Part shown: one piece after another, positions 1,135-8,560 of the stretch
Numbering within the stretch: position 1 is the stretch's first letter
Layout of the letters: each line of letters starts with the position of its first letter
Source: an uncultured Gammaproteobacteria bacterium
GTDB lineage: Bacteria; Pseudomonadota; Gammaproteobacteria; CAMYKB01
Direction: 5' to 3'
DNA length: 64,000 nt
Assembly (NCBI GenBank): GCA_947258875.1
Contig: CAMYKB010000006.1
Span: 1-64,000, forward strand
Position numbers and translations under genes: made by a program
Notes under the pieces: generated by a model
Database searches by the model: none
Told to the model about the DNA's origin: nothing
What the model saw: the letters and a program-made list of their open reading frames with translations, nothing else

Positions 1135-2853
1135 ATGAAACGGGCCACATTCCCGCTAAAGTGGCTTGTCTACCATAGGTTGCGGAGGTTAAGCTCTCTA
1201 ACCATTATGCAAAAATATAATAAACAATCCCAGTGGGCATGCGTCGCAGCACTCATACTGTTATCAGCCTGTAGTACACAATCACCGCGCCCAGATACGG
1301 CTGATCAAGTGCTGGATGTGACACCAACGGCCCCAGACCCAGGAATCAAAGAGGCTTTCAGCGATAACATCCTGCTGCCCAGGCTGGATATAGAAACCAG
1401 GCCGCAACAAAGTGTGGCAATAGACGGCGATGACATCTGGCAACGATTACGCCAGGGCCTGCGCTTTGCTGGCCATGAAGATCATCCGCTGGTGCAGCGA
1501 CATCTTGAACAATACCTCAACAATCCGGATTACATCCTGCGGGTGAGCGAACGTGCTGCTCCCTATCTGCATTTCATAATGCAACAAATTGAGCAACGCG
1601 ACCTGCCCATGGAACTCGCCTTGTTACCCATCATTGAGAGCGCCTATGTCCCCTTTGCATACTCACAGGGACGCGCCGCCGGACTCTGGCAGTTTATCCC
1701 TGCTACGGGCCGCCATTTCGGCCTGAAGCAGAACTGGTGGTACGACGGTCGCCGTGATATCTATGCCTCGACCCAGGCCGCACTCAATTATCTGCAGAAA
1801 TTGAACCGGCGTTTTGAGGGAGACTGGATGTTGACCCTAGCGGCATATAACGCAGGCCCGGGTACTGTTAGCCGCGCCATAGAACGCAATAGACGTGCCG
1901 CCAGATCCATGGCTTACTGGGATTTACCGCTATCCGCCGAGACTCGCAACTATGTCCCCAAACTATTGGCTGTCAAAGCGATATTTTCTCAGCCCTGGCG
2001 TTATTCAATTGATTTGCCAACGATTGCCGACACCCATCACTTCCAACATGTCGTGATCGCAGGTCAAATCGACCTGGCACAAGCTGCTGAACTCGCCGGG
2101 ATCGATGTTGAATCGCTGTATCGCCTCAATCCCGGCTTCAACCGCTGGGCTACGGATCCGGAGGGACCGCATTATCTACTCATCCCGGCCGCGCATGCAG
2201 AGCGCTTTGAACAAGCCCTCGCCGAGTTACCCGCCGACCAGCATGTCAGCTGGGTGCGTCATAAAATACAACCCGGCGATACATTAAGCGAAATCGCACG
2301 CCGATATCACACCAGTACCCAACTGCTCAAGCAGATCAACAAACTCAGCGGTCATCGCATTCATGCGGGGCGACATTTGCTCGTACCCAAGGCACAACGC
2401 AGAATGGATGAGTATATGCTCGCAAGCACACAGCGACAGCAGCGGCTACAAAGTACACAGCGAGAAGGGATTCGACGGTTGTATACCGTGATGCACGGGG
2501 ATAGCTTCTGGAGTATTGCCAAAGCACATAACGTTAGCCTGAATAAGCTGACCCGCTGGAATGGAATGGCCCCCGGCGATATCCTGCGCCCGGGAGACGA
2601 ACTGGTCATCTGGCTGCCTTCGGTCAATGAAAACGCATACCTTACGCCCGCCAGCCTTGGCCCGCCCTCTTCTCAACATAGCCTGAGGACTATCCACTAC
2701 GCTGTCAGACCAGGCGATTCCCTTTACAGGATTGCCCGCAAATTCAGTGTCAGCATCACCGACATCAAGAGCTGGAACAAGATCAAGGGCAAGCATCTAC
2801 GTCCCGGGCAAAAACTCACATTATATGTCGATGTGACCAAACAACAGGGCTGA
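1135..2853 (+). CDS. mltD: Membrane-bound lytic murein transglycosylase D
   Basis: This is a periplasmic lipoprotein that cleaves the MurNAc-GlcNAc bond of peptidoglycan to give 1,6-anhydro ends. From the 1135 start the lipobox is LLSAC with Cys46; an ATG at 1207 would give a more usual signal peptide with Cys22, but only 1135 has a ribosome-binding site (AGAGG, 10 bp upstream). The SLT domain lies at about residues 140-260, with catalytic Glu in LLPIIESAY and the AGLWQFIPATG and TLAAYNAGPG motifs. Three LysM repeats follow at about 375-420, 448-492 and 520-565, each with the GDxxxxIA core. Length and domain order match MltD. Confidence 0.95.
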   Translation: MKRATFPLKWLVYHRLRRLSSLTIMQKYNKQSQWACVAALILLSACSTQSPRPDTADQVLDVTPTAPDPGIKEAFSDNILLPRLDIETRPQQSVAIDGDDIWQRLRQGLRFAGHEDHPLVQRHLEQYLNNPDYILRVSERAAPYLHFIMQQIEQRDLPMELALLPIIESAYVPFAYSQGRAAGLWQFIPATGRHFGLKQNWWYDGRRDIYASTQAALNYLQKLNRRFEGDWMLTLAAYNAGPGTVSRAIERNRRAARSMAYWDLPLSAETRNYVPKLLAVKAIFSQPWRYSIDLPTIADTHHFQHVVIAGQIDLAQAAELAGIDVESLYRLNPGFNRWATDPEGPHYLLIPAAHAERFEQALAELPADQHVSWVRHKIQPGDTLSEIARRYHTSTQLLKQINKLSGHRIHAGRHLLVPKAQRRMDEYMLASTQRQQRLQSTQREGIRRLYTVMHGDSFWSIAKAHNVSLNKLTRWNGMAPGDILRPGDELVIWLPSVNENAYLTPASLGPPSSQHSLRTIHYAVRPGDSLYRIARKFSVSITDIKSWNKIKGKHLRPGQKLTLYVDVTKQQG

Positions 2854-3147: not shown

Positions 3148-3306
3148 ATGGACTTGAAGCGGCCTTTGCCAGGTTTGTTCGACCGCCCCCCCTTGACTAT
3201 TATGTGTATAGGGCGGGCGGCACTATCTCTACTGCTTGACCCCCGGATATCATCTTTCACCATGCCTGACCCCAGGAACTGCAGAGGCACATCTGTACAT
3301 GCCTAG
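3148..3306 (+). CDS. Possible 52-residue leader ORF overlapping the kinase start
   Basis: This ORF starts MDLKRPLPGLFDRPPLTIMC and ends TSVHA. An AGGAG ribosome-binding site lies 10 bp before its ATG (3133-3137). Its TAG stop (3304-3306) overlaps the ATG of the kinase at 3299 by 8 nt, a typical translational-coupling layout. The peptide has no recognised domain; the middle (ALSLLLD) is mildly hydrophobic and there are two Cys. It may be a real small protein or a leader that controls kinase translation. It could also be chance, since 52 codons is short. Confidence 0.35.
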   Translation: MDLKRPLPGLFDRPPLTIMCIGRAALSLLLDPRISSFTMPDPRNCRGTSVHA

Positions 3307-4213
3307 TGGAATCTTTTCCAGTGCGGCCGAAACAACCATGGTTGTTCACAAGGACGAATTGCTGCAAACCACGATCGGTAATTACACGGTCGACAAGATC
3401 CTCGGCAGGGGTTCTATGGGTATCGTCTATCTTGGCACCCACAAAATCACCGGGCGCAAAAGCGCCATCAAGACCATGTTGTTGTCGGATGAATTTGCAG
3501 CCAGTGAAATCATGGGCGCGCGAACACGCTTCATCAGCGAGGCCGAGACTGCCAGGCTACTCAATCACCCTTATATCGTCACCATTTACACTGCTGGGGA
3601 AGAAGATGACCTCGCATTTATCGCCATGGAGCTGCTCAACGGGCAAGACCTGACCCGCTATACCAATCCGGACAATCTGCTGCCGCTGAGCAATATACTC
3701 TCGATCATAGAAAAATGTGCTATAGCGCTGGATTACGCCCATTCATGTGAAGTTGTTCACCGCGATATTAAACCGGCTAACATCATGTTCGACTGGCAGA
3801 CTGGCAAGATCAAGGTCACGGACTTTGGTGTCGCGCGAATCGCAGATTCCAGTAAGACACGCGCCGGCATTGTGCTCGGTACACCATCATATATGTCTCC
3901 CGAACAGCTGACTGGCAAAAAAATTGATGGCCGGACAGACATCTTCTCGCTAGGCATCATGATGTTCCAGCTACTGACAGGTTCCCTGCCCTTCAAGGCC
4001 AGATCGATTCCTGATCTCACACAGAAAATATGCTGCCAACCTCACCCAGTAGCCAGTAAAATGCGTCAGGGCGTGCACCGCAGCGTCGATGCAGTTATCG
4101 ACAAGGCGCTCAGAAAAGATATCAGTGAGCGTTATCAAACCGCAGGCGATATGGCAAAGCAAGTTCGCACATGCCGCGAATTCATGAAAATAAATGCCCG
4201 AGATAGATCATGA
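3299..4213 (+). CDS. PknB-type serine/threonine protein kinase (soluble)
   Basis: This is a 304-residue Hanks-type kinase. Motifs in order: glycine loop GRGSMGIVYLG, catalytic Lys58 in SAIKTM, Glu in the following helix, catalytic loop HRDIKPAN (Asp156), DFGVAR, SPEQLTG in place of APE, and DIFSLGIMMFQLLTG. No transmembrane segment or extracellular sensor follows the kinase domain, so it should be cytoplasmic. The ATG at 3299 is preferred over the in-frame TTG at 3236 because AGAGG precedes it and because it overlaps the stop of the small upstream ORF; an ATG at 3338 is another option. Its stop overlaps the phosphatase start by 4 bp, so kinase and phosphatase are one operon. Confidence 0.92.
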   Translation: MPSGIFSSAAETTMVVHKDELLQTTIGNYTVDKILGRGSMGIVYLGTHKITGRKSAIKTMLLSDEFAASEIMGARTRFISEAETARLLNHPYIVTIYTAGEEDDLAFIAMELLNGQDLTRYTNPDNLLPLSNILSIIEKCAIALDYAHSCEVVHRDIKPANIMFDWQTGKIKVTDFGVARIADSSKTRAGIVLGTPSYMSPEQLTGKKIDGRTDIFSLGIMMFQLLTGSLPFKARSIPDLTQKICCQPHPVASKMRQGVHRSVDAVIDKALRKDISERYQTAGDMAKQVRTCREFMKINARDRS

Positions 4214-5028
4214 GCAACGCGGTCGAAATTGTAGGGCATAGCGATACCGGTCTGGTACGTTCCCAAAATGAGGACTACATTGGGAATATACCCGAGATTG
4301 GTGTTGCCGTATTGGCCGATGGCATGGGCGGGTATCGTGGTGGCGAGATCGCAAGCGCGATCGCAGTCAACACAATTATGGAACAACTGAATAAAACCGT
4401 TCCTAATCTAGCAGCTGATCAAATCGATAGTAAGACAGGTTACTACCTGCAGAGTGTTGCGGCACGCGAATCTATTGTACTGGCTAACGAGGCCATCTAT
4501 AAGGCCGCGCAGGAACAACCACAATATCAGGGTATGGGCACTACGGTCGTCGTTGCAATCATCAATGGCAACCGCATGACGATTTCTCATGTCGGTGATT
4601 CCCGACTCTACAGAATCAGGAACAATACACTTGAACAAGTAACTGTTGACCATACACTGATGCAAGAACTGGTTGATCGCGGCTTTTACACCAAAGAGGA
4701 AGCTCGGGAATCACTCAACAAGAATCTGGTTACGCGTGCACTGGGTATTGAGCTATCTGTCGCCGTGGATATCAAAGAAGAGATGGTAGTACCGGGCGAT
4801 CTGTATATGCTATGTTCTGATGGACTGCACGATATGGTCGATGATGAAAAAATTGCATCGATCATCCAGGCGCATCAGAAAGATCTTGCAAATACGGCAA
4901 GCGAACTTATCAAGGCTGCCAATGAACACGGTGGCAAGGATAATATCTCCGTGCTTCTGATCAAGATCCACTCAACCGGCAAACAAGGCGGGTGGTTGAA
5001 ACGACTGTTAGGAATTTTTTCAAAATAA
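4210..5028 (+). CDS. PP2C-family serine/threonine protein phosphatase
   Basis: The 272-residue protein would reverse phosphorylation by the adjacent kinase. PP2C metal-site motifs are all present: SDTGLVRSQNEDY, ADGMGGYRGGE, GMGTTVV, SHVGDSRLY, CSDGLHDMV and GGKDNISVLLI. Length is close to Stp/PrpC phosphatases. The C-terminus (GWLKRLLGIFSK) is a short basic amphipathic tail that might touch the membrane. ATGA overlap with the kinase gene indicates translational coupling. Confidence 0.93.
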   Translation: MSNAVEIVGHSDTGLVRSQNEDYIGNIPEIGVAVLADGMGGYRGGEIASAIAVNTIMEQLNKTVPNLAADQIDSKTGYYLQSVAARESIVLANEAIYKAAQEQPQYQGMGTTVVVAIINGNRMTISHVGDSRLYRIRNNTLEQVTVDHTLMQELVDRGFYTKEEARESLNKNLVTRALGIELSVAVDIKEEMVVPGDLYMLCSDGLHDMVDDEKIASIIQAHQKDLANTASELIKAANEHGGKDNISVLLIKIHSTGKQGGWLKRLLGIFSK

Positions 5029-5084
5029 ACTACACCTTTTACATTTGTATGTTTTTTTAACTAACTGAAAATATTTGCACTCAT

Positions 5085-5396
5085 ATGGCTAAGCTGATCA
5101 TCACCCTCAATGACGAAAAGGTCGACGAATACCGGATTGATAAATCCTGCCTGACCATTGGTCGCGACAACGGTAACGATGTCCTGCTGGGCAATCCCAC
5201 CGTCAGCAGCTATCACGCCCAGATCATCACCATTCTTAATGACTCCTTTATTGAGGATCTCAATAGCACCAATGGCACATTCGTGAATTCGACGTCAATC
5301 AAAAAATACGCCCTCAACGACGGCGATCAACTAAAGATAGGCCAATATCAGGTTAAATATATTAAACACCGCGCCAGCGATACAGACATCGCGTAG
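5085..5396 (+). CDS. Stand-alone FHA domain protein
   Basis: The 103-residue protein is almost entirely one forkhead-associated domain: LTIGRDNGNDVLL, then NPTVSSYHAQI, then DLNSTNGTFVN, which include the conserved Arg, Ser, His and Asn residues that read phosphothreonine. No other domain or signal peptide is present. It lies 56 bp downstream of the kinase/phosphatase pair, so it is probably the phospho-reader of that pair. The upstream gap is AT-rich and has only a weak ribosome-binding site. Confidence 0.92.
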   Translation: MAKLIITLNDEKVDEYRIDKSCLTIGRDNGNDVLLGNPTVSSYHAQIITILNDSFIEDLNSTNGTFVNSTSIKKYALNDGDQLKIGQYQVKYIKHRASDTDIA

Positions 5397-5480
5397 CTAC
5401 GTGCCCATGATTGACAAATCACCCAAAATATCAGCATACTGAGGCAGCTAATCCGGCCTACCGCCGATCAGGAGCACTGA

Positions 5481-7685
5481 TTGGTTATCCAACGCTCATT
5501 CCGTACTCTTATTGGTGTCATGCTAGTGGTGTTGTTTTTGCTGCATGTCGCCGGCATCCTACCCATCAAACTGCTGCACACCCTTGAAAATGCCAGCTAT
5601 GATGCGCGTCTTCACCTTACCATGCCAAATAGCATCGACCCCCGTATCGTCATTCTCGACATTGACGAAGCGAGCCTATCCGAAATAGGACAGTGGCCGT
5701 GGAACAGAGCCCTGCTTGCACAACTGGTAGAACGTCTCAACAGTGACTACGATATTAAATTGCTCGCATTCGATATCGTATTTGCCGAAAGCAATACTAA
5801 CGAAGGACTGGAGGTGCTACAGCAACTGGCGCGGGGAGAACTACAAAATAACGAGGAATTCTTAACCGCAATTACCCGCCTGCAACCGGAACTTATGCAT
5901 GACAAAATTTTTGCCGACAGCCTGAGGGGGCGTAACAGCGTGTTGGGTTATTACTTCAAGCAGAGCGAGACACTGGACAACCGCCTTGTCATTGGCAAAC
6001 TGCCTGCTCCATTTTATCAATTACAACTTCCAGTAAACTCACACACTTCATTGATCGAGGCCAGCGGCTACGGTGCCAATATTGACATTATTCAAAACAG
6101 CGCGGCTTCTGCCGGCTTTATTGACAACCCGCTGATCGACGAAGACGGGGTACTGCGGCGAGCACCGATGTTGCAGCTTCACCGGAATGGCCTTTATGAA
6201 TCATTTTCGCTAGCGATCGCACGTAGCGCGCTGGGCTCTCCCGAGATTGAATTGGTTATCGCTGACAATGACAATAACTACTTTGAAATCGAAGCCATTA
6301 TTCTTGCCGATAAACTCATTCCACTTGGAGAGTATGCCAGCGCGCTGATCCCGTATCGCGGTAATCAATACAGTTTCCCCTACGTTTCAGCGCGCGATGT
6401 CCTGAATCGCAGCGTCAATCCCGACATCCTCAAGAATGCGATTGTCATTGTCGGTACAACAGCACCCGGATTGATGGACTTACGCGCCACGCCGGTACAA
6501 AAGGCCTATGCCGGCGTCGAGATCCATGCAAACCTGGTTGCCGGAATACTCGATAACCGCATCATGCAAAGCCCGGCCTATGTGCGTGGCTACGAATTCA
6601 TCCTATTGTTGATTATCGGCGCCCTGATGCTTGCCCTGTTACGCACCTCGACACCCTGGTGGTCAATCCTGTTTACCATTTCACTACTATTACTGGTCGC
6701 CGGAAGCTGCATTTATATGTGGCTGCAACAAAAGCTGGTATTGCCAGTAGCAGCTCCGATAACATTGATCCTGATACTGTTTTTCATCCATTCCGCATTT
6801 GGTTTTATCCTCGAATCACGCAACAAACGTAAACTAGCCAAATTATTTGGCCTATACATCCCCCCTGAACTCGTAGATGAAATGAGTAATCAACCAGGCA
6901 GTTACACATTACAGGCCAAAAGCCGTGAAATCACTGTGTTATTCATGGATGTACGTGGTTTTACACGGATTGCAGAAAGGCTGGATCCTGAACTACTTTC
7001 ACAGCTTATGAATGAATTCCTCACGCCTATGACCCAGATCATCCATAAACATCGCGGCACCATCGACAAGTACATGGGAGACTCCATCATGGCGTTCTGG
7101 GGAGCACCACTGGATGATAGCGACCATGCAGAACACGCTGTGCATACCGCCCTGGAAATGCTGGACGTACTAAAAGACATTCAACGACGTTTTGTACAAA
7201 AGGGCTGGCCGCCACTGGAGATTGGCATAGGCATCAATACCGGAACCATGAGCGTTGGCAATATGGGCTCCAAATTCAGAACCGCATACACTGTAATGGG
7301 AGATGCGGTTAATCTGGGTAAGCGCCTTGAAGAACTGACCAAGACCTATGCGGTGCCGATTATCCTCAGCCAAACCACCCGCGAAGCGGCCTCAAACTAT
7401 ACCTATATGGAACTCGACAGGGTAAAAGTCAAAGGCAGAGACGAATTGATAACCATCTTCACACCGCTTGACCTGTTGAACTCACTATCGGCATCCAGAT
7501 TTGCTGAACTCGAGCGCCATAAACAAGCACTGAATCTGTTCCGTATGGGCGATTGGAATGCGGCCAGAATTACATTCTCTGCATTGCATGCCGAACACCC
7601 GGAGACACTACTTTATTCCTTGTATCTTGATCGCATCGATGCGCAAATTAAAAAACGCCAGCGGCCCACAGCCCTGCAACAGTAA
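5481..7685 (+). CDS. CHASE2 sensor-class III adenylate/guanylate cyclase
   Basis: The 734-residue membrane protein has one N-terminal membrane helix (about 10-30), a periplasmic CHASE2 sensor (about 32-360, with the typical RIVILDIDEASLSEIGQWPW start), three close membrane helices (about 365-440) and a cytoplasmic class III cyclase domain (about 475-660). Both metal-binding Asp residues are visible (FMDVRGFT and YMGDSIMAFWG), as is the GDAVNLGKRLEE block. It should make cAMP (or cGMP) in response to an envelope signal. The start is a TTG supported by AGGAG 6 bp upstream; the next ATG lies inside the first helix. As the last gene of the phospho-signalling cassette it may be its output or a parallel branch. 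Confidence 0.9.
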   Translation: MVIQRSFRTLIGVMLVVLFLLHVAGILPIKLLHTLENASYDARLHLTMPNSIDPRIVILDIDEASLSEIGQWPWNRALLAQLVERLNSDYDIKLLAFDIVFAESNTNEGLEVLQQLARGELQNNEEFLTAITRLQPELMHDKIFADSLRGRNSVLGYYFKQSETLDNRLVIGKLPAPFYQLQLPVNSHTSLIEASGYGANIDIIQNSAASAGFIDNPLIDEDGVLRRAPMLQLHRNGLYESFSLAIARSALGSPEIELVIADNDNNYFEIEAIILADKLIPLGEYASALIPYRGNQYSFPYVSARDVLNRSVNPDILKNAIVIVGTTAPGLMDLRATPVQKAYAGVEIHANLVAGILDNRIMQSPAYVRGYEFILLLIIGALMLALLRTSTPWWSILFTISLLLLVAGSCIYMWLQQKLVLPVAAPITLILILFFIHSAFGFILESRNKRKLAKLFGLYIPPELVDEMSNQPGSYTLQAKSREITVLFMDVRGFTRIAERLDPELLSQLMNEFLTPMTQIIHKHRGTIDKYMGDSIMAFWGAPLDDSDHAEHAVHTALEMLDVLKDIQRRFVQKGWPPLEIGIGINTGTMSVGNMGSKFRTAYTVMGDAVNLGKRLEELTKTYAVPIILSQTTREAASNYTYMELDRVKVKGRDELITIFTPLDLLNSLSASRFAELERHKQALNLFRMGDWNAARITFSALHAEHPETLLYSLYLDRIDAQIKKRQRPTALQQ

Positions 7686-7777: not shown

Positions 7778-8560
7778 ATGGGTTTTCTTCAGGGTAAACG
7801 CGCACTCATTGTCGGCATCGCCAGTAACCGCTCAATTGCCTGGGGTATCGCCGAGGCCATGCACCGCGAGGGCGCGGAGTTGGCCTTTACCTATCAGAAC
7901 GAGAAGCTCAAACCCCGTGTAGAAAAAATAGCGGCTGAATGTGGATCCAACATCGTATTGCCCTGTGATGTCGTCGATGATTCCCAGATCGAAGACGTGT
8001 TCGAGCAACTTGGGAAACATTGGGATGGGCTGGACAGTATCGTGCATTCCGTGGCATTTGCCCCCAAGGAGCAACTGGAAGGCGATTACCTGGACAATGC
8101 CACACGTGAAGGGTTTAGTACTGCCCACGATATCAGCTGCTACAGCCTCACTGCACTGGCCAAAGGTGGCCGCCGTATGATGCAGGGCCGCAACGGCTCC
8201 ATATTGACGCTCAGCTACCTGGGTGCAATACGCGCTGTACCCAACTACAACATCATGGGCCTGGCAAAGGCCAGCCTGGAAGCGAATGTGCGATATTTGT
8301 CCTATAGCCTTGGCCCTGAAGGAACACGTGTGAATGCAATCTCAGCGGGACCCATACGCACGCTGGCGGCAGCCGGTATCAGCGATTTCCGCAAAATGCT
8401 GGATCACGTCGCATCCAATGCCCCGCTGCGGCGTAACGTCACTATTCAGGAGGTGGGCAATGCCGCAGCTTTCCTTTGTTCTGACCTGGCCAGCGGCATT
8501 ACAGGTGAGATTACCTACGTCGATTCGGGTTTCAATACTATTGGCATGTCGGGTTACTGA
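7778..8560 (+). CDS. fabI: Enoyl-[acyl-carrier-protein] reductase (NADH)
   Basis: FabI reduces the trans-2-enoyl-ACP double bond in the last step of each fatty-acid elongation cycle. The 260-residue sequence has the divergent SDR nucleotide motif [17 protein letters not shown] and the FabI active site: Tyr in [13 protein letters not shown], then [16 protein letters not shown] with the catalytic Lys. Length is standard. An AGGAG site precedes the ATG. It is convergent with ppiD. Confidence 0.97.

Follow-up and report, generated by a model that had tools for sequence, protein, structure and literature searches.

Several described signalling systems share elements with the locus presented here. 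In the PknG-GlnX-GlnH-OdhI/GarA system of Actinobacteria a soluble Ser/Thr kinase with an FHA substrate is encoded next to a separate membrane sensor, and the activation loop of PknG is open without phosphorylation (both from the available part of PMC8546545). Ser/Thr kinases with a CHASE2 domain have been described in cyanobacteria (PMC2176072, in part), and CHASE2 adenylate cyclases in Campylobacterota and Sinorhizobium (excerpts of PMC9239204 and PMC13001267). The threonine phosphorylation pathway of type VI secretion systems (T6SS) comprises a kinase, a PP2C phosphatase and an FHA protein (PpkA-PppA-Fha; PMC3953482, in part). Here we analysed a window of 64,000 nucleotides, positions 1 to 64,000 of contig CAMYKB010000006.1 from an uncultured Gammaproteobacteria bacterium, in which the same trio of genes lies next to a gene for a membrane cyclase with a CHASE2 domain. 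We propose, with a probability of roughly 45%, that this locus represents a conserved gammaproteobacterial set in reduced form, with a PknG-like soluble kinase branch beside the sole remaining CHASE2 sensor. No paper on the combination of kinase, PP2C, FHA protein and CHASE2 cyclase was found in the open-licence full-text literature, which lacks most subscription journals.

Like the PknG system, the window combines a soluble kinase, an FHA partner and a membrane sensor, but the membrane partner is a CHASE2 cyclase instead of GlnX/GlnH, and the kinase lacks the TPR scaffold of PknG. The FHA protein scores below the OdhI model (42.9 of 200 bits) and has no residues ahead of its FHA domain that could hold an N-terminal phospho-motif, which OdhI-type FHA proteins possess. 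We regard the likeness to PknG and OdhI as an analogy of layout only. In the cyanobacterial proteins CHASE2 is joined to a Hanks-type kinase, as in the gammaproteobacterial relatives of the window, whereas the window kinase has lost CHASE2; the available text of PMC2176072 mentions no PP2C-FHA-cyclase neighbourhood. The cyclases of Campylobacterota and Sinorhizobium are CHASE2 membrane sensors that deliver cyclic AMP (cAMP) to CRP-type regulators, as we propose for the window, but the partners named in the excerpts are FecR, TPR proteins, a phosphodiesterase or NsrA and not a kinase/PP2C/FHA trio. Compared with the T6SS pathway, the window set lies in a different chromosomal slot and has a different partner. 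FHA domain and cyclase, separate proteins in the window, are united in one protein in DgcB of Bdellovibrio, a diguanylate cyclase. The FHA domain of DgcB was solved with a phosphorylated N-terminal peptide (6hc1 and related entries, in part).

The window encodes the following four proteins (supporting evidence in brackets):

3299..4213, forward strand: soluble Hanks-type Ser/Thr kinase, 304 aa (Pfam, alignment, kinase tree)
4210..5028, forward strand: PP2C phosphatase, Stp1/IreP type (Pfam; NF033484 above cut-off)
5085..5396, forward strand: FHA protein, 103 aa (Pfam, alignment, structure models)
5481..7685, forward strand: CHASE2 membrane class III cyclase, predicted adenylate cyclase (Pfam, alignment to solved cyclases)

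All four open reading frames (ORFs) are intact and lie on one strand. Their Pfam matches are far over the cut-offs: Pkinase (1.9e-54) for the kinase, PP2C_2 (3e-14) and PP2C (5.7e-14) for the phosphatase, FHA (4.5e-19) for the FHA protein, and CHASE2 (1.9e-57) plus Guanylate_cyc (3.5e-24) for the cyclase. These matches bear out the sequence-only reading of this DNA, which had recognised a writer, an eraser and a reader of Thr phosphorylation next to a membrane CHASE2 cyclase, all in one direction.

Relatives were taken from a tool-chosen draw of 369 genomes of the class (368 besides the window's own), in which the window's own order is represented by no genome among the relatives. Single queries detected the PP2C (E 1e-45) in 108 of the 369 genomes and the cyclase (1e-70) in 107, the window's genome included in both counts. 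For 107 other genomes the surroundings of the PP2C were fetched, 19 kb at most and 3.5 kb on the shortest contig, along with those of 13 cyclases that either were unlinked or lacked a PP2C match. All were annotated with custom profiles and additional Pfam checks. Loci cut by contig ends were counted as unlinked, and a second PP2C match in one genome (G342) lies outside the fetched stretches.

The usual set consists of a CHASE2(-TPR) kinase, a PP2C and an FHA protein of about 240 aa, encoded close together. A CHASE2 kinase is present at 60 of the 107 PP2C loci and a CHASE2-less kinase at 9, while 38 have no kinase within the fetched stretch; the receptor form thus accounts for 60 of 69 class-drawn trios. 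The window shows the usual order of kinase, PP2C and FHA gene on one strand, with a cyclase nearby. A cyclase was found in the locus for 29 of the 60 CHASE2 kinases, but at none of the 47 loci where the kinase is missing or lacks CHASE2. Orthologous kinases carry a CHASE2 domain of their own, so where a cyclase belongs to the system, there are usually two proteins with CHASE2. None of the nine CHASE2-less kinases of the class draw adjoins a cyclase, so an adjacent cyclase is no general replacement for a lost sensor. The position of the cyclase varies: it can follow the trio immediately in the same direction (L057, L058, L085, L086, L091), converge on it right after the FHA gene (L075, L092, L110 and L124, among others), lie at a distance of 2-8 kb downstream (L072, L087 and L094, among others), or stand upstream in divergent orientation (L115, L126). 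At one further locus (L151) a 582 aa CHASE2 protein without a cyclase domain is encoded downstream of the trio, possibly another output of the same sensor type. PP2C, often with an FHA gene, is also kept beside varied neighbours without a kinase in the stretch (e.g., L060, L066, L120); the kinase of such loci, if any, must be encoded elsewhere.

The window kinase has intact HRD, DFG and Lys positions in an alignment to PknB, and Pfam detects neither CHASE2 nor TPR in it. CHASE2 was found once in the whole genome, on the cyclase. A tree was built from the kinase and PP2C domains of 72 trios, from which the duplicate loci L080, L082 and L108 had been removed beforehand. In this tree the window kinase groups with the CHASE2 kinases L070 and L076 (support 91), within a larger clade of mostly CHASE2 kinases. 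As it is nested among CHASE2 kinases, the sensor was lost. The sequence-only reading had described a soluble kinase without its own sensor, which is true for the window but is a derived state. Neither the sequence upstream of the kinase nor the gap between FHA and cyclase genes nor the rest of the genome showed a convincing trace of CHASE2 or TPR; an upstream tblastn search gave 128 weak rows, and the best of the first 15 (E 0.034) matched residues within the L057 kinase domain.

The activation loop is altered as well. The window kinase reads TRAG, without the Thr of the usual T-x-T/S-G, which is kept as T-x-T-G (S in L059) in 62 of 62 CHASE2 kinases. The loop Thr/Ser is also absent from L067, L069 and L127, all of them CHASE2-less (L069 has a Ser one position later), and is retained in the CHASE2-less kinases L114, L100, L101, L107, L188 and L190. 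A tree calculated without the activation-loop columns gives three losses of this residue. Three of the CHASE2-less kinases (L100, L101, L107) keep a stretch of about 250-285 residues ahead of the kinase domain, which in L100 shows weak matches of TPR type, and perhaps represent an intermediate stage of sensor loss.

A short motif, which we term T-phi-phi-phi, consists of a Thr, two hydrophobic residues (with Ala allowed as the second) and one of L/I/V/M. Of the 62 CHASE2 kinases, 48 have it ahead of the kinase domain, where shuffles predict 1.6, and of the 66 long FHA proteins, 57 have it in the linker behind the first FHA domain, where 1.7 are expected. These counts are inflated by the common ancestry of the rows, but the conservation of the motif itself is plain. 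It could be the phospho-Thr ligand of the first FHA domain, comparable to GarA and OdhI. The window kinase keeps TMVV (within ETTMVV) before its domain, and the window FHA protein has no linker motif.

The phosphatase scores over the cut-off of the NCBI Stp1/IreP family NF033484, and among 67 sites that are near-invariant in the 72 trios it deviates at just 2. The FHA domain retains GR, SxxH and STNGT, but the protein, with 103 aa, lacks the Thr linker and the second FHA fold of its homologues of about 240 aa. A similarly short FHA protein is found in only two other trios of 69 (L156 and L188, 116 aa). Neither the FHA-cyclase gap nor the rest of the genome showed a convincing remnant of the second half. 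Because the model of a whole homologue (mean pLDDT, the predicted local distance difference test score, of 68.7) held little information on the second half, we modelled this half alone (pLDDT 85.6). It forms a second FHA fold that resembles GarA/OdhI-type FHA domains: they were matched in Foldseek with a best E of 7.4e-6, and the superposition on 6i2p_E, tied with others, gave a Z of 13.2 and 2.0 A over 86 residues. For the FHA folds, GarA and OdhI are among the best structural matches. Judged by eye, the SxxH present in the first domain is missing from the second fold.

The catalytic domain of the cyclase aligns with solved adenylate cyclases over DVRGFT, DKYMGD, YTVMGDAVN and KRLEE. According to this alignment, it has the metal-binding Asp pair, the purine Lys and the transition-state Asn/Arg of class III adenylate cyclases. 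The Lys in DKYMGD and the Thr in YTVMGD point to ATP as substrate, and we predict from the sequence that the enzyme makes cAMP. The conserved C-terminal W-D-G tail is missing from the window cyclase; 48 other cyclases compared have W followed by D, N or T. Possible cAMP receivers exist, as the genome has seven places with a cyclic nucleotide-binding domain, one of them a CRP-type regulator at 71.8 kb of contig C6. A cyclase 50% identical to that of the window is found on a contig labelled Desulfobacterales (L014), through transfer or misbinning.

Trio and cyclase are evolutionarily linked and no chance neighbours. Among the 368 other genomes, 106 have the cyclase, 107 the PP2C and 50 both (Fisher p 1.8e-6), and in 29 of these 50 the two genes are at most 10 kb apart on one contig. 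With cyclases of at least 640 bits, 38 of 48 genomes also have the PP2C (p 1e-14), and 28 of these 38 pairs lie within 10 kb, as read from the match tables. The 640-bit cut was chosen after the list was seen, and both p-values ignore the relatedness of the genomes. The distance matrices of cyclase and PP2C from 30 linked loci correlate with 0.83.

In the window, the four genes are flanked by two further genes:

1135..2853, forward strand: mltD-like lytic transglycosylase with SLT and LysM domains, left flank of a recurrent slot (Pfam, slot order)
7778..8560, forward strand: fabI-like enoyl-ACP reductase, right flank of the slot (Pfam)

The order mltD-kinase-PP2C-FHA-cyclase-fabI recurs in relatives, and fabI follows the cyclase immediately in L087 too. 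Recurrent neighbours are a methyltransferase gene in opposite direction, mltD, the trio and fabI, followed by ppiD, HU and lon where the stretch extends that far. The window genes occupy this slot; of the 107 class loci, 15 show both of its flanks, 14 only the upstream one and 78 neither. Because the slot neighbours recur in relatives, the cassette looks vertically old here and not recently imported. Linked trio-cyclase pairs occur also where neither flank is seen.

Kinase and PP2C genes overlap by 4 bp, and gaps of 56, 84 and 92 bp separate PP2C from FHA, FHA from cyclase and cyclase from fabI. A start at 3148, as assumed in the sequence-only reading, had to be given up: inspection by eye placed this ATG in another frame, which reaches a stop before the kinase domain. 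The kinase frame offers TTG 3236 (325 aa), ATG 3299 and ATG 3338; the upstream sequence is best at 3299, with a weak AGAGG. The cyclase starts with TTG 5481, preceded by AGGAG. A promoter scan gave 8 sites versus 9.6 in shuffles, with the best match, TTGACA-N18-CATACT, at 5411-5440 inside the FHA-cyclase gap. Since promoter matches are no commoner than in shuffles, the operon structure is still unproven.

Our proposal of a reduced form implies the following mechanism. The conserved set probably serves envelope sensing. In its full form, a CHASE2(-TPR) receptor kinase, the PP2C and a tandem-FHA protein would act beside the CHASE2 adenylate cyclase, so that two receptors of one sensor class would have phosphorylation and cAMP as outputs, plus a phosphatase and a phospho-adaptor. 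The window kinase is soluble and lacks the phospho-Thr switch of the activation loop, and therefore probably has basal activity, which may be set by docking and by the PP2C. The minimal FHA protein would read phospho-Thr, possibly in the ETTMVV of the kinase's N-terminal tail. The cyclase, the only CHASE2 sensor left, would make cAMP for CRP-type proteins. We infer kinase activity, docking site and cyclase product, as well as, from co-conservation only, the coupling of the phosphorylation and cyclase branches. The sequence-only reading had suggested the CHASE2 protein as the input; the cyclase might instruct the kinase, be tuned by it, or act apart from it. If the branches are coupled, many uncharacterised Gammaproteobacteria would have a single sensor system that unites cAMP and Hanks-type phosphorylation. 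The stripped form of the window, set against the full relatives, indicates parts whose mutual contacts can be studied: CHASE2-TPR, the activation-loop Thr, the linker Thr, the second FHA domain and the cyclase tail.

A bolder version is improbable in our estimate. It says that receptor kinase and receptor cyclase form one two-output envelope sensor across Gammaproteobacteria and share the PP2C and the tandem-FHA adaptor. The window kinase would have shed its receptor and its loop switch, and the adaptor its second half, with the CHASE2 domain of the cyclase serving both branches, as a natural split of a receptor kinase.

Several observations weigh against the reduced form as a working system. 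It occurs together with a cyclase in one genome only, and a deletion made by the assembly is possible. The ETTMVV motif is present only if translation starts at 3236 or 3299 and is lost with the start at 3338. When phylogeny is considered, 2-3 of 5 independent pairs agree in the loss of CHASE2 and of the loop residue and none oppose, a number with which significance is unreachable; independent pairs for CHASE2 and cyclase linkage within the trios show no direction, and significance is unreachable here too. With 11 deviations in 90 near-invariant sites, against a median of 1, the window kinase has the fourth most of 72, which also fits relaxed constraint. Of the 50 co-occurring pairs, 21 are not within 10 kb, some perhaps through contig ends, and 57 of 107 PP2C genomes have no cyclase match at 1e-70, so the cyclase is a frequent but not an obligatory partner. 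Co-conservation of the four genes, which the sequence-only reading had proposed to check, is thus seen in part: linkage in 29 of the 50 genomes stands against these 57 genomes without a cyclase and the 38 kinase-less PP2C loci. Finally, cyclase trees place the window cyclase near unlinked ones, on long branches flagged by the program. In a test that left out 5 of 49 cyclases (L024, L191, L192, L203, L115), a clade of the window cyclase with L057/L058 was not rejected (p-AU 0.54, approximately unbiased test). On these two grounds, a separate import of the cyclase was rejected as an explanation.

A serious rival, though an unlikely one, is that the phosphorylation branch is decaying towards the kinase-less PP2C-FHA pair of many relatives and that the cyclase works on alone. 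The deviating sites of the kinase and the 38 of 107 loci without a kinase are in line with such decay, as are the shortened tails of FHA protein and cyclase. However, no ORF is interrupted, HRD, DFG and Lys are in place in the kinase, the PP2C has its near-invariant sites with the two exceptions given above, the FHA protein keeps its pThr-binding residues, and kinase and PP2C genes still overlap by 4 bp.

We judge it doubtful to the same degree that the genes are mere neighbours in an old chromosomal slot, with a cyclase that responds to a signal of its own and supplies CRP proteins apart from the trio. The mltD-fabI slot holds other genes in relatives too, 21 of 50 pairs are distant or on different contigs by our count, and CHASE2 cyclases elsewhere pair with FecR/TPR or outer-membrane partners (excerpts of PMC9239204 and PMC13001267). 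But linkage persists outside the slot, with neither flank at 78 of 107 loci, and in convergent order, so that inheritance of the slot alone is no explanation. A T6SS threonine-phosphorylation module stripped of its secretion genes would have the same three protein types, but we rejected this very improbable origin, since VipA (PF05591, the sole T6SS family searched, with a positive control matched in E. coli) is absent from the whole genome, in line with the sequence-only reading's remark on missing secretion genes, the FHA protein reaches 46 bits versus the cut-off of 120 for the T6SS (TagH-type) FHA family, relatives' kinases carry CHASE2, and 29 of 107 loci lie by mltD, its neighbour or fabI.

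Further signalling genes were noticed elsewhere in the genome of the window. A second kinase/cyclase/FHA neighbourhood lies on contig C37 (L205:5319-11552), where genes for a kinase of 791 aa, an ATPase of T2SSE type and a 296 aa protein with both cyclase and FHA parts are close together. On contig C36 (L209:7101-11177) a 1358 aa protein combines Ser/Thr kinase, class III cyclase, AAA ATPase and TPRs; it resembles the TOMM kinase/cyclase model but stays under its cut-off. Three short FHA-domain ORFs follow each other on the minus strand of contig C20 (L207:6962-8943). On contig C15 (L208:9363-10624) a truncated Ser/Thr kinase ORF overlaps an ORF with the remainder and a cyclic nucleotide-binding domain, apparently a kinase with a cyclic nucleotide receiver that was split by a frameshift or a sequence error.

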